From the NCBI GenBank assembly GCA_016870275.1, contig VGBZ01000006.1, positions 1-64,000 on the forward strand: 64,000 bases of DNA, in the 5' to 3' direction. This DNA comes from Actinomycetota bacterium (GTDB lineage: Bacteria; Actinomycetota; Acidimicrobiia; Acidimicrobiales; Microtrichaceae). The notes beneath the pieces are model-generated. The model searched no databases. It saw only the letters and a list, made by a program, of their open reading frames with translations, and was not told the DNA's origin. Position numbers and translations under genes: made by a program. Position 1 is the first letter of the stretch; each line of letters begins with the position of its first letter. Below are positions 6,610 through 21,097 of this stretch, in pieces.

Positions 6610-8247
6610 GTGCAGGGCACCATGCAGGACCGACCGCTCACGCTCGACGGGTTCGTCGAGCGGGCCGAGCGGCTCTCGCCGAACAAGCAGATCGTCACCG
6701 CGACCGTCGGTGGCGTCGATCGGGTCACCCACGGCGAGTGGGCCGACCGCACCCGCCGGTTGGCCTCGGTGCTCGACACCCTCGGCATCTCCGCCGACGG
6801 CCGAGTCGCCACGTTCGCGTGGAACACCGCCCGCCACCTGGAGCTGTACTTCGCCGCACCGTGCAGCGGACGGGTGCTGCACACGCTGAACATCCGGCTG
6901 TTCCCCGAGCAGGTCACCTACATCGTCAACCACGCACAGGACGAGGTGATCTTCGTCGACCGGTCGCTGCTCGGCCTGCTCGCACCGCTGGTGCCGAGTT
7001 TCACCACGGTGCGGCATCTGGTGGTCATGGAGGACGGCGCGCCCGTGGCGGACGTGGCGGGTCTCGAGGGCGTCGAGCTGCTCGACTACGAGACGCTCCT
7101 TGCGACCGCCGAGCCGGCCGAGTTCACCGTCACCGACGAACTGCGCGCCGCGTCGATGTGTTACACGTCCGGCACCACCGGCAACCCCAAGGGGGTCGTC
7201 TACACGCACCGCAGCACCTACCTGCACACGATGGCGGCGATGTTCGCCGACTCGGTCGGCGTGTCCGAGTCCGACGTGATCATGCCGGTCGTCCCCATGT
7301 TCCACGCCAACGCCTGGGGGTTGGCCCACGCCGGTGTGGCCGCCGGGTCGACGCTCGTCATGCCCGGCCCGAACATGGTGCCGGCTGCGCTCGCCGGGCT
7401 CATCGAGTCCGAGCGGGTGACGCTCGCCGCCGGGGTGCCGACCATCTGGATGGGCGTGCTGCCGGAGCTGGCGGGCCGGGACACCTCGGCGCTGCGGGTC
7501 ATCCCCTGCGGCGGGTCCGCCGTGCCGAAGGCCCTGTCCGAGGCCTACCGCGCCCAGGTCGGCCTGCCCATCCTGCAGGCGTGGGGCATGACCGAGACGA
7601 GCCCGGTGGCCTCGGTCGCCAACGTGGTGTCGTGGCTCGCCGACGGCACCGACGACGAGCTCGCCGACCTGCGCGCCACCCAGGGCCGGCCGCTGGTGGG
7701 GGTGCAGCTGCGCATCGCCGATCAGGAGACGGGTGCCGAGTTGCCCTGGGACGGCACGAGCCGAGGTGAGCTGCAGGCCGCCGGGCCGTGGATCGCCGCC
7801 AGCTACCACGACGACCCCCGCTCGCCCGAGTCGTTCACCGACGACGGCTGGCTGCGCACCGGCGACGTCGCCGTGATCACCCCCGACGGCTACGTGCGCA
7901 TCGTGGACCGCACCAAGGACGTCGTGAAGTCCGGCGGCGAGTGGATCAGCTCCGTCGAGCTCGAGAACGAGATCATGGCGCACCCCGCCGTGGCCGAGGC
8001 CGCCGTGATCGGCGTGCCGCACCCCAAGTGGTCCGAGCGGCCGCTGGCGTGTGTGGTCGTCGCCCCCGATGCCGAACTGACCGCCGAGGACCTGCTCGCG
8101 TTCCTCGACGGCCGGGTGGCCAAGTGGTGGCTCCCCGACGACGTCGTGTTCATCGACGAGGTCCCCAAGACGAGCGTCGGCAAGTTCTCCAAGAAGGACC
8201 TGCGGGACCGCTTCGCCGACCACGTCCTGCCGACCGCAGGGGACTGA
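6610..8247 (+). CDS. Long-chain acyl-CoA synthetase (AMP-forming ligase)
   Basis: A 545-residue ANL-superfamily enzyme that should activate a fatty acid to its acyl-CoA through an acyl-AMP. Core motifs are [17 protein letters not shown] (P-loop-like A3), AWGMTETSP (A5), [13 protein letters not shown] (A7), and [13 protein letters not shown] with a final lysine in [11 protein letters not shown] (A8 and A10). The GTG at 6610 gives the N terminus [11 protein letters not shown], which resembles the usual medium/long-chain ligase start; ATG 6622 is the alternative. It ends 34 bases from the convergent heliorhodopsin gene. The exact chain length preference is not readable. Confidence 0.92.
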
Positions 8248-8249
8248 CC

Positions 8250-8266
8250 GGCCGGGCGGGCCGGCC
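8250..8266. terminator. GC hairpin between the ligase and heliorhodopsin genes
   Basis: GGCCGG (8250-8255) and CCGGCC (8261-8266) form a perfect 6-bp stem around a 5-base loop in the short gap between two convergent genes. There is no T tract. A bidirectional terminator is plausible but not shown. Confidence 0.35.
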
Positions 8267-8281
8267 ACTCGGCCGACGGGC

Positions 8282-9085
8282 TCAGTTGGCGAGCGATCCG
8301 CCGTAGATCTGCCAGGCCAGCAGGGACTTCGCCACCAGGCTCAGCACCAGGTAGATGCGCTCGCCGTGGAGGTAGTCGGCCCACTTGCCGACACGCCGAT
8401 ACTGCAGCCACTGGTTCAGGCCGAAGCTGAAGAACAGGATCTGCTCGGTCACCACGATCCCGTAGACGAACCCGGGCACCGTCTCGGCGCCGATCACGTT
8501 GATCCAGATGGCGATCCACGGTGCCATCCCGGCGATGGTGCCGAACCAGAACGCCTGCATGCTCGTGGAGGTGCGCCCCGGCGGGTTGGTGCGTTCCTGG
8601 ATCCAACCGAACAGGATCATGGCAACGTTGGCGCCGACGATCGTGACGACGGCGGTGATGTCCGTGACCCCCGAGTACGCAGCGATCAGGACGATCATCA
8701 GCGATGCGCTGAACGAATACTCGACCCAGCGGAACCGGTTGATCCCCCGGCCGAGGTCGGTCTCGTAGGTGGACCGGCCCACGGTGGCGGTCAGCAGATG
8801 GTCGACTGCGGCGAGCCCCAGGAACACCGCCACGGCGATGCCGATCGGCAGGTCGAACAGCGGCTGCGGTTCGCTCAGGCGGCTGCCCGGGGGGCCCGTC
8901 GGGAACGTCGAGGTGATGGTGATGGCGAAGCTGCCGCTGAGCACCAGGATCAGCACCGCCTGAATGGCGTGCAGTCCGGTCAGGCCGACGTTCCAGCGCC
9001 ACAGTCCGCTCAATCGTTCCGGCGAGGTGTCGACCGGCGGGACCGGCGTGGAGGTCGGGCGCACTGAGGCAGGGGAGTCGCTCAC
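8282..9085 (-). CDS. Heliorhodopsin (retinal-binding seven-helix photoreceptor family)
   Basis: A 267-residue seven-helix membrane protein (helices near 32-54, 80-101, 117-137, 140-161, 177-199, 205-228, 242-262). It carries the heliorhodopsin signatures: [18 protein letters not shown] in helix 3 with counterion Glu122, [17 protein letters not shown], and [16 protein letters not shown] in helix 7 with the retinal Schiff-base lysine at K253. Histidines 39 and 96 match the inner-pocket histidines of actinobacterial heliorhodopsin 48C12, and GPPGS lies in the long A-B loop. Helix 3 lacks the DTD-, NDQ- or NTQ-type motifs of type-1 pumps, so this is not a proton or ion pump of that kind. The first ~27 residues are an extra, Pro/Ser-rich extension. 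The GTG start follows a reverse TAGGTT by six bases. Function in the family remains unsettled (light sensing or membrane-enzyme regulation proposed). Confidence 0.95.
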
Positions 9086-9148
9086 GGAGTCAACCTAGAG
9101 CGCAGGTGCTGCGGTGGCGGCGACCTGCTCCACGTAGGGTTCCCGTTG
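9086..9148. promoter_or_regulatory. Divergent heliorhodopsin / SURF1-TetR promoter region with inverted-repeat operator
   Basis: Two opposed -10 elements face away from each other: reverse TAGGTT at 9092-9097, six bases from the heliorhodopsin GTG, and forward TAGGGT at 9135-9140, eight bases from the SURF1 GTG. Both -35 regions fall on the same stretch near 9112-9120. A perfect inverted repeat, GCAGGT (9102-9107) and ACCTGC (9123-9128), is centred at 9115, midway between the two -10s, with half-site centres 21 bp apart (two helical turns). I infer an operator, most simply for the TetR protein encoded directly after SURF1. Confidence 0.55.
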
Positions 9149-10003
9149 GTGTACGACTTCGCCCGACGGCCGGCCTGGATCGTGAGTCACGTGCTCGTGG
9201 TGGTGGGTGTGGCCGTGCTCGTGGTGCTCGGATTCTGGCAACGGGCCCGCTTCGTGGAGGAGAGCACGACCGCCGAGCAGATCGAGGCTCGCTCCACGAC
9301 CCAGCCCGTGCCCATCGACGAGGTCGTCCCGCCCACACTCGAGGTGGCGTCCGTGCCCGAAGAGGCCGAGTTCGCCCGGGTGAGCGTCTCGGGCACGTGG
9401 GATCCGGCTGCGGAGGTCTACGTCCGCAACCGGTCCTACAACGGCGCCCCGGGCTCCTGGGTCCTCACGCCGCTCGTCCAGCCCGACGGCACCGCCGTTG
9501 CGGTGGTCCGCGGCTGGATTCCCACCGTCGATCCCGATCCGCCCGGCCCACCGTTCCCCGGTGCGGAGCCACCCGCCGGCCCCGTGGAGATCGCCGGTGT
9601 GGTCCAACTCAGCCAGACCGTGGGGGGTCTCGGTGCCGCCGACCCCTCCGGAGGTCGCCTCGAGGTGTTGAACCGGGTCGACCTGCAGCGGCTCGCCGAG
9701 CAGCTTCCCTATCCGCTCGCCCCGGCGTGGGTGCTGCTCGATGCACAGTCACCGGCGCAGACCACGGCCATCCCGGCCCGGGTGAGCGTCGAGACTCCGT
9801 CGGCCAGCCAGAACTTCTCCTACATGATCCAGTGGTGGCTGTTCGCCGCCATCGCCGCCGGCGGCTACGTGCTCGTCCTCCGACGCCAGGCTCGCTCGCA
9901 GGCGGCCGGGGGAGCCACGCCGGTCGACGACGACACTGCTCCGCCGTCGCCTGACTCGCCGAGGGACTCGCCGTCGAGTGCGATCGGTTCGGGGCGTGGC
10001 TGA
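9149..10003 (+). CDS. SURF1 family cytochrome oxidase assembly protein
   Basis: SURF1 proteins assist heme insertion into cytochrome c oxidase. The 284-residue product shows the expected plan: an N-terminal membrane helix (about residues 12-30) ending in GFWQRARF, a large extracytoplasmic domain with VSGTWDP, VYVRNRSYNGAPGSWVLTPL and VVRGWIP, and a C-terminal helix starting FSYMIQWWLFAAIAAGGYVLVL. The extracytoplasmic loop and C-tail are proline-rich. GTG 9149 is used; TTG 9146 is in frame and cannot be excluded. It is divergent from the heliorhodopsin and overlaps the next TetR gene by eight bases, so the two are almost certainly cotranscribed. No oxidase subunit genes are in the window. Confidence 0.9.
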   Translation: MYDFARRPAWIVSHVLVVVGVAVLVVLGFWQRARFVEESTTAEQIEARSTTQPVPIDEVVPPTLEVASVPEEAEFARVSVSGTWDPAAEVYVRNRSYNGAPGSWVLTPLVQPDGTAVAVVRGWIPTVDPDPPGPPFPGAEPPAGPVEIAGVVQLSQTVGGLGAADPSGGRLEVLNRVDLQRLAEQLPYPLAPAWVLLDAQSPAQTTAIPARVSVETPSASQNFSYMIQWWLFAAIAAGGYVLVLRRQARSQAAGGATPVDDDTAPPSPDSPRDSPSSAIGSGRG

Positions 10004-10589
10004 GCAGAAGTCGTCGCGGGAGCGGGTCCTCGCCGCTGCGGTCCGCTGCGCCGAGCGCTCCGGGGTGAAGCGATTCTCGATGGAGGACGTCGCTGCCGTC
10101 GCCGGAGTGTCGCGCACGACGATCTACCGGCAGTTCCCCGGCGGGCGTGATCAGCTCGTCGAGGAGGCAGCGACCTGGGAGGTCGCTCGATTCTGGCGAC
10201 GCGTCGGGCGGGCGGTGACCCGTGAGGCGACGCTGGAGGACCGGCTCGTGACCGGGATCATGGTCGGCGCCGACATGATCGCCCGGAGCCGCATCATCGC
10301 CACGATCGACGACAGAGAGGTCGAGGAACTCGCCGCTGTGCTCCGACCGTCCGATCGGCTCGTCCACGGGGTGATCCGCAGTGAGCTCCGGCGCCTGCTC
10401 GAGGTGGAATCGGACGCCGGTGGGTTGCGAGCCGAGGTGGATCTGGACCGGGCGGCGGACTACCTCACCCGGATGACTCTGTCGGTGCTCGCCAGCCCCG
10501 CCGGGACCGACCTCGCCGACCGCGAGGCGACCGCCCATCTCGTCCGCACCCAGTTCCTCGGTGGCATCGTCCCGGCCGCACCGGGTTGA
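9996..10589 (+). CDS. TetR family transcriptional regulator (linked to SURF1)
   Basis: A 197-residue regulator. The N-terminal helix-turn-helix is clear: RVLAAAVRCAERSGVKRFSMEDVAAVAGVSRTTIYRQFPGGRDQLVEEA (about residues 8-56, read in pieces), followed by an all-helical ligand-binding and dimerisation domain. GTG 9996 lies within the last eight bases of SURF1, which indicates translational coupling; GTG 9978 is an alternative. Its likely target is the inverted repeat between heliorhodopsin and SURF1, which would give autoregulation plus control of the photoreceptor. The inducer is unknown. The last nine codons form the left arm of a strong hairpin that spans the stop codon. Confidence 0.9.
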   Translation: MAEQKSSRERVLAAAVRCAERSGVKRFSMEDVAAVAGVSRTTIYRQFPGGRDQLVEEAATWEVARFWRRVGRAVTREATLEDRLVTGIMVGADMIARSRIIATIDDREVEELAAVLRPSDRLVHGVIRSELRRLLEVESDAGGLRAEVDLDRAADYLTRMTLSVLASPAGTDLADREATAHLVRTQFLGGIVPAAPG

Positions 10590-10608
10590 GCGGCCGGGAC
10601 GATGCCGC
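10561..10608 (+). terminator. Long perfect hairpin spanning the TetR stop codon
   Basis: Bases 10563-10579 (starting GGCATCGTCC) and 10590-10606 pair perfectly over 17 bp, with one wobble and one more GC pair extending outward to 10561/10608. The 10-base loop holds the TGA stop (10587-10589). The left arm is therefore coding sequence. There is no T tract, but the stem strength makes it a credible terminator or 3'-end protector for the SURF1-TetR transcript. Confidence 0.65.
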
Positions 10609-10705
10609 CGCACACGTTCCCGGTGCACTCACACCCGCCCGTGGGGACTGGTTGCACCGGAAACGGCCGCAGGCGACGGTGGCCGATGTCACACCGAGTA
10701 GGTGG

Positions 10706-10735
10706 TTGCCAGTGAGACACTTTCGGTCTTATTGT
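10706..10735 (+). promoter_or_regulatory. Promoter and likely operator of the second TetR gene
   Basis: TTGCCA (10706-10711) and TATTGT (10730-10735) are 18 bases apart, and the -10 ends seven bases before the GTG at 10743, which suggests a leaderless mRNA. An imperfect inverted repeat, CAGTGAGAC (10710-10718) and GTCTTATTG (10726-10734), matches at 7 of 9 positions and covers the spacer and -10. It is a good candidate autoregulatory TetR operator. Confidence 0.55.
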
Positions 10736-10742
10736 TCCACCC

Positions 10743-11462
10743 GTGAGTGCAGTGGCCGTCCTCAGTCTCACGCCCGCTGACCGGGCGCTCGACGCCCTCG
10801 TGGACTGCGCCATGCGCTGGGGTCTTGCCAAGACGACCGTCGATGACATCGCCCGGGCCGCCGGGATGTCCCGTGCCACGCTCTACCGCCTCTTCCCCGG
10901 GGGGAAGTCCGCCATGGTCCAAGCGGGCACCCACCGCATGGTCACCCAACTCGCCGAGACGGTCTCCGATGACCTCGGCGGCGCCTCCGACCTCGCCGAT
11001 GCGCTGAGCCGGGCGATCGTCACCGCCCGGCGGGTCCTCTCCGACGACGACGCGCTGCAGTTCCTGCTCGAACACGACCCGGCGGCGATCAAGGCCCAGC
11101 TCGCACTCGGCGGCTACGACCAGGTGCTCGATGCAGCTGCCGGCGCCATCGGCCCGGCGCTGGCGCCGTTCGCCGGCTCGCCCGAGAGGGGCGCCACCGC
11201 TGCGGTGTGGGCCGCACGCCTGCTGGTGTCGTACCTCACCGATCCGGCCGACGAGGACCTCGCCGATCCAGCGGTGGCCACGGCGCTCGTCGAGGACTTC
11301 TTCATCCCGGGGTTCGCACGGTCCGGCGAGACATCCGCGACGGCGAACCGCACCTCGGGCCCGGCACCGACCACCGATCCCGAAATCGATCCGAACAGCC
11401 ATTCGACCACCGACCCAGATACCCAACCGACCGGCACCCGGTCACAGGAGGACCTGACATGA
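10743..11462 (+). CDS. TetR family regulator coupled to a diiron oxidase gene
   Basis: A 239-residue TetR protein. The helix-turn-helix region reads ALVDCAMRWGLAKTTVDDIA then AAGMSRATLYRLFPGGKSAM, roughly residues 15-60. The C-terminal ligand domain is followed by a disordered Thr/Pro/Asp-rich tail (about residues 200-239) that TetR proteins normally lack. GTG 10743 is supported by the -10 seven bases upstream. The gene overlaps the ferritin-like gene by ATGA, so regulator and enzyme form an operon and the operator candidate upstream would autoregulate both. It is related in layout, but not closely in sequence, to the TetR gene just upstream. Confidence 0.9.
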   Translation: MSAVAVLSLTPADRALDALVDCAMRWGLAKTTVDDIARAAGMSRATLYRLFPGGKSAMVQAGTHRMVTQLAETVSDDLGGASDLADALSRAIVTARRVLSDDDALQFLLEHDPAAIKAQLALGGYDQVLDAAAGAIGPALAPFAGSPERGATAAVWAARLLVSYLTDPADEDLADPAVATALVEDFFIPGFARSGETSATANRTSGPAPTTDPEIDPNSHSTTDPDTQPTGTRSQEDLT

Positions 11463-12589
11463 GCATCAACGACGACCTGATCGGCCGCTCTGACGTCAAC
11501 GACCTCGAGGCGATCCTCGCCGTGTCGAACACCGAGCGTGACGAGGTCATCTCCTGTGTGTCCCAGAACGCCGAGGCGATCTTCACCTGGGACTACACCA
11601 AGGGCGCCCGACCCTCACTCGACAAGCTCTACGAGAAGGCCAAGGTCTCCATGTGGAACGGTGAGACCGATCTGCCGTGGGACACGCCAGTGGACCAGGA
11701 GAAGCTGATCGCCGAACAGGCGATGGCCAACTCGGCTGCGGGTATCGGACTCGCCGATTTCGACATCTCCGGCACCTCGTTCGAGAAGTGGACCGAGAAG
11801 CAGTGGGTGGCGTTTGCGGTCGAGTCGGAGAACTGGACCCTGAGCCAGTTCATGCACGGAGAACAGGGCGCCCTGATCTGCACCGCCAAGATCGTCGAGA
11901 CGGTGCCGTGGATCGACGCCAAGTACTACGCCTCGACCCAGGTGATGGACGAGGCTCGTCACGTCGAGGTGTTCGCCAAGTACCTCGACACCAAGCTCTC
12001 GGGCTACTACCCGGTCAACGCTCATCTCAAGATGCTGCTCGACGACATCGTGTCCGACAGCCATTGGGACATGACGTACCTCGGCATGCAGATCATGGTC
12101 GAGGGGCTCGCCCTGGCGGCGTTCGGCTTCATGCACCAGATGAGCATCGAACCGCTCCTCAAGCAGCTGCTGCGCTACGTGATGAGCGACGAGGCCCGCC
12201 ACGTGGCCTTCGGCGTGTTGTCGCTCAGGGAGTATTACGAGCAACTCTCCGACGCCGAGATGTTCGAGCGCCAGCAGTTCGCCTACGAGGCCGCCGTGCG
12301 CATGCGGGACCGCTTCCTGCAGCAGGAGGTCTGGGAGCGGATGGACGTCCCCGTCAAGGAGGCCATCGAGCTGGTCATGCGCACGCCGACCCGGCAGCTG
12401 TTCCAGATGATGCTCTTCTCCAAGATCGTCCCGAACTGCAAGAAGCTCGGTCTGCTGGATCGCAACGACCAGTGGCTGCGTAGGCGGTTCGAGGAGATCG
12501 GTGTGATCCAGTTCGAGGACTGGGTCGACACGAGCGACGAGTACGAGCGCTTCGCCCTGGGCGAGGAACTCGAGCCCACTGCCGGCTGA
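11459..12589 (+). CDS. Ferritin-like diiron oxidase/oxygenase (R2-like fold)
   Basis: A 376-residue helical protein with a complete set of diiron ligands of the ribonucleotide-reductase-R2/ferritin-like type: E135 in HGEQGA, E165 and H168 in DEARH, E215 in MVEGLA, and E245 and H248 in a second DEARH. Such proteins activate O2 at a carboxylate-bridged di-iron centre. Which substrate is oxidised is not readable; relatives include AurF-type N-oxygenases and acyl desaturase-like enzymes. GGAGG at 11447-11451 lies seven bases before ATG 11459, and the start overlaps the TetR stop (ATGA). Coupling to its own regulator suggests an inducible stress or catabolic function. Confidence 0.8.
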   Translation: MSINDDLIGRSDVNDLEAILAVSNTERDEVISCVSQNAEAIFTWDYTKGARPSLDKLYEKAKVSMWNGETDLPWDTPVDQEKLIAEQAMANSAAGIGLADFDISGTSFEKWTEKQWVAFAVESENWTLSQFMHGEQGALICTAKIVETVPWIDAKYYASTQVMDEARHVEVFAKYLDTKLSGYYPVNAHLKMLLDDIVSDSHWDMTYLGMQIMVEGLALAAFGFMHQMSIEPLLKQLLRYVMSDEARHVAFGVLSLREYYEQLSDAEMFERQQFAYEAAVRMRDRFLQQEVWERMDVPVKEAIELVMRTPTRQLFQMMLFSKIVPNCKKLGLLDRNDQWLRRRFEEIGVIQFEDWVDTSDEYERFALGEELEPTAG

Positions 12590-18355: not shown

Positions 18356-21097
18356 GTGTCCACCAGAACCCCCCAGTCAGCCCGGTCGACCAAGAAACCC
18401 TCGGCCCAGAGCGGACCGAACCGGTCGAACCGTCAACCCCCCAGATCGGCAACAGCCGGATCCAAGCGGTCCGCTGGTGCGCCGGCGTCCCGTCAGGGAC
18501 GCGGGGTCACCAACTCCTCGACGCCGTGGGGCCTGCTGTTCGACGGCCACGGCCACGATGTGCTCGGGATCGCCTGCATTCTCCTCGCTGTGCTCGTGGC
18601 GCTCGGCGTGTGGTTCGGCGCCGCCGGGCCGGTCGGATCGGCTCTCGACGCCGCAGCCCGAGGACTCGTGGGTCTCTTCGCCGTCGTGGCGCCGGTCGGC
18701 CTCGCAGTCACCGGGGTGCTGCTCATCCGGGGTCGTCGCCAACCCGGTGCCGCCCCGACGAGACGGTCAGGAGGTGCCCGCACGGCACGGTCCGGTGTTG
18801 CTGATCCCGCCGAGGCCTCTGAACCGGCCGAGGAGCCGACCGACCGCCTGCCCGCTCGGATCGCCGGGGCGGTGCTCGCCCTGATCGTGGCGCTCCTCGC
18901 AGCCCACCTGCTCGCCGGGACCGACGCGTCGATCTCACAGGACGGCCTCGACGCCTACGGATCCGCCGGCGGGTTGCTCGGAGCGGGGTTCGGTTGGCCG
19001 GTGTTCCGTCTGATCGGACCGTGGGGGGCGTGGGCCGTGGTGTTGACGCTCGGCCTCCTCGCTGCCGGACTCCTGAGTGGCCGGCCGATCCGTTCGATCG
19101 TGGGTGCTGCCGCTCGTCGCGTCAGACCCGCTGCGCAGGCCTGCCTTCGCTGGGTGCGTGGCCTGTTCGTCGTGGGCGCCGCAACGCCACCGCCGAGGGT
19201 CGCTCTCTACGATCAGGATGCGGCCGCTGAGACCACGGCGCCCCCCGGATCCCGCCGTCGACGCAGAACCCGTGACGACATCGATCCGGCATCTCCGCAG
19301 GAGAGCCCCGCATCGCCGCAGGCGACACCGGGTGCCGCTGAGCCAACCGGATCGACGCCGGCCGTTGCAGACGACGCCACGCCACCGGGCCCGCCCGAAC
19401 AGCTCCAGATCGGACTGCCTCCCGGTGCTGGGCCGTCCAACTGGAAGCTCCCGGCGGCCACGTCGCTGTCGATGTCGGAACGAACTGCGATCGACACCGA
19501 GGCCGTCGAGCAGCGGGGCCGGCAGCTCGAGGCCGCACTCGCCGAGCACGGCGTCGAGACCCGGCTCGTCGGGATGGTCGTCGGTCCCACCGTCACCCGT
19601 TACGAACTCGAACTCGGCGTCGGCGTCAAGGTGGCTCGGGTCACCTCGCTCAACAAGGACATTGCGTACGCACTCGCAGCCCCGGACGTGCGGATCCTCG
19701 CTCCGATCCCCGGTCGGCAGGCGATCGGCATCGAGGTGCCCAACGCTCGACGTCAGGTCGTGAACCTCGGCGACATCCTGGCCTCGCCCGAGGCGCGGGC
19801 GGCGGTGCACCCTCTCCAGGTGGGCGTCGGCCGGGACATCACCGGCGCTGCGGTGATGATGGACCTCGCCGCAATGCCCCACCTGCTCATCGCCGGCCAG
19901 ACGGGAGCGGGCAAGTCGAGCTGCATCAACTCGATCATCACATCGATCATGATGCGAACCACGCCCGACGACGTGCGCATGATTCTCATCGACCCCAAGC
20001 GTGTCGAGCTCACCCAGTACAACCGGATTCCGCACCTGCTCACTCAGGTCGTGACCGACCCCCGCAAGGCGTCCAACGCATTGAACTGGGCCGTCAAGGA
20101 GATGGAGCGGCGCTACGACATCCTCGAGAGAACCGGCGCCCGGGACATCGGCATCTACAACGCCGCATTCGACAGCGGCGAACTCGTCGCCGGACCCGGC
20201 GAGGAGAGCGACTTCGAACGCCTCTCGCACATCCTCATCGTGATCGACGAGCTCAACGACCTGATGATGACCGCACCCCGGGACGTCGACGACGCCATCT
20301 GCCGTATCGCCCAGAAGGCCCGGGCCGTCGGGATCCACCTCGTCATCGCCACGCAGCGACCCTCGGTCAACGTCATCACCGGAACGATCAAGGCCAACGT
20401 CCCGGCCAGGCTGGCGTTCGCCGTGGCATCAGCGGTCGACTCGAAGGTCATCCTCGATCAGCCCGGTGCCGAGCGGCTCGTCGGCAAGGGCGACATGTTG
20501 TTGTTGACGCAGGGCTCCTCGGTGCCGCACCGGATCCAGGGGGCGTGGGTCGACGAGAAGGAGGTCGCCCGGATCGCTGCGTTCTGGAGGCGCCAGACGC
20601 CGGCGGTCGCTGCGGTTCTCGACGACGTCCAAAGTGAGCAGAACACCTCGCTGCCCGGTACCGGCTCCGACGGTGGCTCCGATGACGACGCTCTGCTCGA
20701 ACAGGCCATGGATCTCGTCGTCGGCGATCAGATCGGATCCACCTCCATGCTGCAGCGTCGACTCAAGGTCGGCTTCGCCCGGGCCGGCCGCCTCATGGAC
20801 CTGCTCGAGGAGCGTGGGGTGGTCGGACCCTCGGAGGGTTCCAAGGCCCGGGTCGTCCTGATCACCCCGGACGAACTCGCCGCCATGCGTGCGAGCACCG
20901 GCGCGCCGACGCCGGGCACCGGTGATCCCACCGGTGCCATCGCCGGTGATCCCACCGGTGCCATCGCCGGTGATCCCACCGGTGCCATCGCCGGTGATCC
21001 CACCGGTGCCATCGCCGGTGATCCCTGGGCGGATGCCACGGACGCCCCCGCCGCCGGACCTCCCGGTGTCACGGGCGACACGAGATCGACGACCTGA
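18356..21097 (+). CDS. ftsK: DNA translocase FtsK
   Basis: A 913-residue DNA motor that segregates chromosome ends during division. The N-terminal third holds several membrane helices (near residues 60-85, 100-125, 165-190, 205-235). A proline/alanine-rich linker follows, then the motor with Walker A GQTGAGKS near residue 514 and Walker B-like ILIVIDELNDLM. Residues about 778-845 form the winged-helix gamma domain that reads KOPS-type sequences (DQIGSTSMLQRRLKVGFARA). After gamma, where FtsK normally ends, there is a tail with four exact copies of GDPTGAIA. GTG 18356 is nine bases after TAGGTT. An Fe-S protein gene follows 38 bases later. Confidence 0.96.
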   Translation: MSTRTPQSARSTKKPSAQSGPNRSNRQPPRSATAGSKRSAGAPASRQGRGVTNSSTPWGLLFDGHGHDVLGIACILLAVLVALGVWFGAAGPVGSALDAAARGLVGLFAVVAPVGLAVTGVLLIRGRRQPGAAPTRRSGGARTARSGVADPAEASEPAEEPTDRLPARIAGAVLALIVALLAAHLLAGTDASISQDGLDAYGSAGGLLGAGFGWPVFRLIGPWGAWAVVLTLGLLAAGLLSGRPIRSIVGAAARRVRPAAQACLRWVRGLFVVGAATPPPRVALYDQDAAAETTAPPGSRRRRRTRDDIDPASPQESPASPQATPGAAEPTGSTPAVADDATPPGPPEQLQIGLPPGAGPSNWKLPAATSLSMSERTAIDTEAVEQRGRQLEAALAEHGVETRLVGMVVGPTVTRYELELGVGVKVARVTSLNKDIAYALAAPDVRILAPIPGRQAIGIEVPNARRQVVNLGDILASPEARAAVHPLQVGVGRDITGAAVMMDLAAMPHLLIAGQTGAGKSSCINSIITSIMMRTTPDDVRMILIDPKRVELTQYNRIPHLLTQVVTDPRKASNALNWAVKEMERRYDILERTGARDIGIYNAAFDSGELVAGPGEESDFERLSHILIVIDELNDLMMTAPRDVDDAICRIAQKARAVGIHLVIATQRPSVNVITGTIKANVPARLAFAVASAVDSKVILDQPGAERLVGKGDMLLLTQGSSVPHRIQGAWVDEKEVARIAAFWRRQTPAVAAVLDDVQSEQNTSLPGTGSDGGSDDDALLEQAMDLVVGDQIGSTSMLQRRLKVGFARAGRLMDLLEERGVVGPSEGSKARVVLITPDELAAMRASTGAPTPGTGDPTGAIAGDPTGAIAGDPTGAIAGDPTGAIAGDPWADATDAPAAGPPGVTGDTRSTT
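20921..21025 (+). repeat. 24-bp perfect tandem repeat in the ftsK tail
   Basis: Four identical 24-bp units beginning GGTGATCCCACCGGTGCC start at 20921, 20945, 20969 and 20993, followed by a 9-bp partial copy (21017-21025). Each unit encodes GDPTGAIA. The length is a multiple of three, so copy-number change would keep the frame. Perfect identity at the DNA level points to recent slippage or gene-conversion rather than old protein-level selection. Confidence 0.95.

Follow-up and report, generated by a model that had tools for sequence, protein, structure and literature searches.

An intact heliorhodopsin gene, most likely inserted between already adjacent ligase and SURF1 genes, in a genus of the Microtrichaceae

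The function of the heliorhodopsins (HeRs) is still debated, and the proposals made for it rest largely on the genes found next to them. Three proteins have been reported as HeR partners bound through charges in the cytoplasmic loops: a glutamine synthetase (PMC9529153), a class II CPD (CPDII) photolyase (PMC9769723) and an ABC transporter (PMC11109279). The last of these reports gives the proportion of HeR genes predicted to lie in a shared transcription unit as 38.6%, and as 18.8% in the class Actinobacteria. The HeR described here belongs to the remainder that has no shared transcription unit. It is a member of the same protein family as the operon-linked HeRs of the three reports, and differs from them in having no same-strand neighbour with which a common transcript could be formed.

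Among HeRs of known structure, 48C12 (6su3, 6su4, 6uh3) is 44-46% identical to this protein in Foldseek comparisons, with TM-scores of 0.82-0.87 over the query for six chains. TaHeR from a Thermoplasmatales archaeon (6is6, 7u55) has the same fold (39% identity, TM-score 0.84) and is, as an archaeal protein, further removed. In the following, "window" designates the whole stretch of DNA that was analysed (64,000 nucleotides), and "genus", "family" and "class" are those of the genome to which it belongs. The coordinates of the features discussed are collected in Table 1.

Table 1. Features at the HeR locus of the window, with the evidence for each.
Feature	Coordinates	Strand	Evidence and remarks
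Heliorhodopsin (HeR), 267 aa, GTG start	8282..9085	minus	PF18761, NF038020, 48C12 alignment, AlphaFold/Foldseek
HeR codons 1-27, Pro/Ser/Thr-rich tail ahead of the conserved domain	9005..9085	minus	Alignment, model, dN
SURF1-family cytochrome oxidase assembly protein, divergent neighbour	9149..10003	plus	Pfam PF02104, E 6e-36; start inferred from relatives (the ORF list has TTG 9146)
AMP-binding acyl-CoA ligase, convergent neighbour	6619..8247	plus	Pfam PF00501, E 4.2e-70; NCBIfam PRK06187 subfamily above cut-off; assumed start (the open frame extends farther upstream)
TAGGTT, TANNNT-type -10-like element, 6 nt before the GTG	9092..9097	minus	Genus alignment

The gene, its product and the retinal pocket

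The gene is a genuine, intact and ordinary heliorhodopsin, of a family that was already known. The original prediction, made from the sequence, had recognized it as such and had placed it at the correct coordinates while leaving its strand unstated; the frame is on the minus strand, with a GTG start at 9085 and the stop codon at 8284-8282. The profile search that it proposed gave a full-domain match: Pfam PF18761 (Heliorhodopsin) spans residues 28-265 of the 267 with an E-value of 3.3e-97 and a score of 325 bits, the curated cut-off being 26.7. The NCBIfam model NF038020 "heliorhodopsin HeR" is matched with 273.7 bits (cut-off 100) and the PDB sequence of 48C12 (6su3) aligns to the protein with an E-value of 4.9e-66. 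The AlphaFold model (mean pLDDT 91.1) has the seven-helix HeR fold, with helices 1 and 2 separated by two strands (residues 54-59 and 74-80), and every one of its top ten Foldseek hits in the PDB is a heliorhodopsin (TM-score 0.82-0.87 over the query, rmsd 1.6-2.1). HeR was the only family returned by the Pfam scan of the protein. The profile of the type-1 pumps, PF01036 (Bac_rhodopsin), gave no match to it, in line with the absence of pump motifs noted originally; the sole PF01036 match of this genome is to a different gene, on contig C33. The core of HeR is under purifying selection, as shown by dN/dS values of 0.053-0.119 in all ten pairs formed by five members of the genus.

Residues H39, H96, E122 and K253, found exactly at the positions given in the original prediction, align with 48C12 positions 23, 80, 107 and 241 and are invariant in the 43 aligned HeRs. 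S249, which forms with K253 the SxxxK retinal lysine motif of helix 7 (S249-x3-K253), is also invariant in the 43 rows. We take H23 and H80 of 48C12 to be the pocket histidines, E107 the helix-3 counterion and K241 the retinal lysine. The two proteins thus share the same pocket histidines, counterion glutamate and retinal lysine, and the pocket is intact.

The N-terminal tail had been described as carrying about 27 extra residues relative to 48C12 and as a possible site for binding a partner. The first figure is wrong and the second idea is unsupported. Residue 28 of the protein aligns with residue 12 of 48C12, which gives a tail exceeding that of 48C12 by 16 residues. Its residues 1-9 have a pLDDT under 50 in the AlphaFold model. 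In the five genus members dN of the tail (first 27 residues) is 0.10-0.39, against 0.011-0.061 for the core, and exceeds it about 3.6-10 times in 10 of 10 pairs, those with L033 and L035 being compared over just 26 and 20 tail residues. Tail dS is likewise above core dS in nine of the ten pairs. The tail dN/dS is roughly 0.2-0.5, and this value below 1 leaves room for some constraint. As a rough description, the tail is loosely constrained rather than free, partly unstructured and fast-changing. Ser/Thr-rich tails of variable length are found in many relatives and, given also the low pLDDT and the fast dN, the tail is unremarkable. The topology would be the inverted one of the family, with a cytoplasmic N terminus.

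Retinal supply, photolyase and glutamine synthetase

A search of this genome (96.3% complete) for Blh (PF15461) gave no match. Blh is present in 3 of the 296 class genomes, each time with no more than about 1.1 kb separating it from a type-1 rhodopsin. The search for retinal genes suggested by the original prediction did return a carotenoid (crt) cluster and RPE65-family oxygenases. Polyprenyl synthetase (PF00348), CrtI-family, phytoene synthase (PF00494) and lycopene-cyclase-domain genes lie side by side on contig C35 (L127:5539-10588 (G000:C35), minus strand, with an adjoining NUDIX gene). There are four RPE65-family matches, among them genes on C5 and C86; the NCBIfam matches of two of these proteins are below the curated cut-offs, and the gene on C5 codes for a product 50% identical to the RPE65-family protein encoded directly before the type-1 rhodopsin of genome G092. 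In the latter genome the RPE65-family oxygenase gene lies 18 bp before the rhodopsin gene, on the same strand (L166:3129-5279 (G092:C12)), and is a candidate for a Blh-free retinal source in the class. Retinal is probably supplied in the present genome by its own crt cluster together with an RPE65-family oxygenase. Across the class, Blh and RPE65 are both absent from 102 of the 142 genomes with HeR, and the distribution of HeR thus follows that of no known retinal-forming enzyme. This agrees with the report on Ca. Actinomarinales, in which both rhodopsins are described as present without retinal synthesis genes (PMC7771536).

The second rhodopsin of the genome is xanthorhodopsin-like (268 aa; L120:9171-9977 (G000:C33:18170-18976), minus strand) and has psXR, Gloeobacter Gll0198 and Kin4B8 as its best PDB matches. 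It carries D93/T97/E104, K230 and G151, the last at what is presumably the position of the carotenoid-antenna window glycine in xanthorhodopsins, and is a candidate DTE-type proton pump. Neither of the genus mates G095 and G289 has a match to it.

HeR is common in the class, being found in 142 of the 296 genomes (141 above cut-off; G195, below it, was kept, and the 142 include fragments) and in 68 of 148 genera. In tallies uncorrected for kinship and sunlit habitat, both of which are confounders, photolyase occurs in 60 of the 68 HeR genera and in 32 of the 80 others (all families, all 173 matches used). By genome, and equally uncorrected, the figures are 88 of 106 with HeR against 45 of 148 without it; these leave aside 42 listed rows of family f29, whose unlisted genomes would count as lacking both genes and inflate the contrast, and were obtained after the weak matches of G223 and G245 and 38 weak f29 matches had been dropped (173 to 133). 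With the same two confounders ignored, HeR is found in 20 of the 23 genera that have a type-1 rhodopsin and in 48 of the 125 other genera (removal of G055 and G233, whose matches were below cut-off and fell on HeR genes, took the type-1 rhodopsin count from 62 to 60). RPE65 is found in 40 of 142 HeR genomes and 53 of 154 without HeR (p = 0.26; kinship and habitat ignored; G118, below cut-off, dropped, 94 to 93). The association is negative for PF00494, a profile that takes in squalene synthases too, with 22 of 142 against 51 of 154 (p = 0.0004, again regardless of kinship and habitat). Within flanks of 1.5-6 kb or less, HeR has a photolyase gene as neighbour at 4 of 110 loci, those of G101, G109, G183 and G098; G194 is a further case. 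In other families the two genes are convergent in L171 (G101:C33), L005 (G183) and L172 (G194) and divergent in L173 (G098).

These counts bear on the possibility that HeR is a helper of photolyase in trans, widening its action spectrum, as in Trichococcus flocculiformis, where TfHeR is reported to bind the CPDII photolyase and to bring repair up about 3-fold (PMC9769723). The strong association by genus and by genome, the adjacency in the five genomes just named and the photolyase of the present genome (contig C11) are in its favour, but this photolyase and HeR lie on different contigs, and both genes are perhaps just markers of sunlit habitats. Moreover, the 80 best of 214 relatives show no case of the two side by side, as far as the flanks (1.5-6 kb or less) extend, and the T. 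flocculiformis enzyme is a class II CPD photolyase whereas that of this genome is identified at the level of the photolyase family. Photolyase is the best-supported partner candidate in the class, on weak evidence, and the helper role as such seems to us unlikely, if worth keeping in view.

Regulation of glutamine synthetase, as in Actinobacteria bacterium IMCC26103, is an improbable role. AbHeR of that organism is reported to bind AbGS and to raise its activity in the light; loss of positive charges in an intracellular loop affects binding (K216Q, "no binding"; K217 and K220 were also mutated) (PMC9529153). In the present HeR, R230, R231 and K234 of the putative third cytoplasmic loop have the spacing seen in AbHeR. 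However, basic residues are frequent in this loop among the aligned HeRs, so that these three single out no partner, and no glutamine synthetase gene lies next to HeR here.

The ligase-SURF1 junction and the origin of the gene

The strand of HeR is opposite to that of both its neighbours. The end of the ligase gene is 34 bp from the HeR stop codon, and the start codons of HeR and SURF1 are 63 bp apart. The same-strand partner in one transcription unit that characterizes operon-linked HeRs is therefore lacking, and an operon partner was rejected. A promoter shared with SURF1 was rejected as well: no sigma-70 consensus site was found. TANNNT, which we take to be a class of -10-like element, is followed by 6 nt and the GTG in all four aligned genus members, a weak hint of a leaderless promoter and a transcript of its own for HeR. 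The conservation seen close to the start of SURF1 probably marks the ribosome site of that gene.

Ligase and SURF1 are part of a block found family-wide, which in the window (6619-12589) also includes two TetR regulators and an AurF-like diiron oxygenase (PF11583). Both TetR genes are present in 19 of the 20 family loci read, and AurF was seen in seven, where the locus extends far enough. Farther along the window, ORF 18356-21097, FtsK-like by eye, has the peptide "GAIAGDPT" repeated about four times near its C terminus (about 20900-21020).

A search for SURF1 in 33 family genomes gave matches in 28; the 20 loci returned were read, eight further genomes with a weaker match being left out. HeR lies between ligase and SURF1 at four of them, all from the genus (L131, L132, L133, L135), and at the genus locus L134 the contig end falls inside HeR. 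Fourteen of the 20 loci, from seven other genera, have ligase next to SURF1 on one strand and no HeR between them, the tblastn hit ends being 10-246 bp apart; at L150 no ligase was seen. Ten of the 14 genomes with such an empty junction carry HeR or a fragment of it elsewhere. Within the genus HeR is present in five of six genomes, the sixth (G318) being 66% complete. The HeR-free adjacency of the two genes indicates that HeR was most likely inserted into a pre-existing ligase-SURF1 junction in the ancestor of the genus. The neighbours of HeR at this site thus carry little functional signal, and the importance attached to them by the original prediction finds no support.

Loci farther afield give a similar picture. 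Outside the genus, 76 HeR loci (L036-L111) gave no SURF1 match, and eight of them gave a ligase-family match, with just 27-32% identity to the ligase of the window. Clustering of the ORFs of 78 loci gave, beyond HeR and shadow frames, widest clusters of 13 and 11 loci, mostly Nocardioides; the 13-locus cluster includes the genus ligase (L035). No link between HeR and the ligase is claimed, since the ligase adjoins SURF1 with or without HeR.

The closest among the best 80 of 214 relatives are four MAGs named "uncultured actinobacterium" (88-93% identity), whose HeR segments are identical to those of the genus mates G319, G289, G320 and G095. HeRs of aquatic actinobacterial MAGs (Ilumatobacteraceae, Acidimicrobiaceae, Actinomycetota; e.g., L037, L055, L053) are 71-74% identical to the one described here and have other gene neighbourhoods. 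They belong with it to a starred 19-row clade (95) of mostly aquatic-named MAGs in a 104-row tree, within which the genus HeRs form one clade (100, starred); the other HeRs of the same family are placed at four other positions. Left out of this tree were eleven rows from Nocardioides, four that were short fragments, seven that were duplicates, and the genus's own repeat loci. AU tests, on groups chosen after the tree had been seen, did not reject holding the genus HeRs together with L153 and L155 (p = 0.161) or with L153, L155 and L154 (p = 0.122). Horizontal gain of HeR in the genus is favoured by the tree; as the AU alternatives were not rejected, HeR may instead have been relocated within the genome.

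Coupling of HeR to SURF1 and respiration, or to the acyl-CoA ligase, via a shared intergenic promoter region is very improbable. The short distance to the SURF1 start, the ligase-HeR-SURF1 order kept in the genus and a HeR reported between nuo (complex I) operons in Ca. Actinomarinales (PMC7771536) would fit such coupling, but HeR is read in the direction opposite to both genes, they adjoin without it in most family loci read, ten genomes keep it or a fragment elsewhere, and the loci outside the genus lack SURF1 and have at best a distant ligase. Ion transport driven or gated by light, as by the viral V2HeR3, which moves protons (PMC9448325), is scarcely credible for a HeR that groups with actinobacterial HeRs (in a tree without viral HeR), given that bacterial HeRs are described as devoid of ion pumping (PMC11109279) and that the genome already has a separate candidate proton pump.

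A proposed light sensor and its meaning for the family

The most likely reading, and one that we consider reasonably probable, is that HeR is a retinal-bound sensor whose partner is encoded at another place in the genome. The seven-helix membrane protein would hold retinal on K253, with E122 as its counterion, and light would isomerise the bound retinal. The ensuing slow photocycle would alter the cytoplasmic face of HeR, which could then modulate the partner protein. Retinal binding, topology, slow photocycle and partner signalling are here those expected of the family. A narrower form, in which the HeR of the genus is a horizontally acquired single-gene light sensor with its partner elsewhere, perhaps photolyase, is speculative and rather unlikely.

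The additions made here are modest: a comparison of filled and empty sites, and class-wide tallies. The locus is a clean counter-example to function assignment from gene neighbours. Filled and empty sites are found in one family and suggest that HeR was put between already adjacent genes, so that neighbour-based inference fails here. The tallies, in which HeR goes with photolyase and with type-1 rhodopsin and is not positively associated with carotenoid genes, offer a small testable lead. If the narrower form were true, HeR would function as a "plug-in" module regardless of its gene neighbourhood, and neighbour-based partner assignments would be wrong for stand-alone HeRs.
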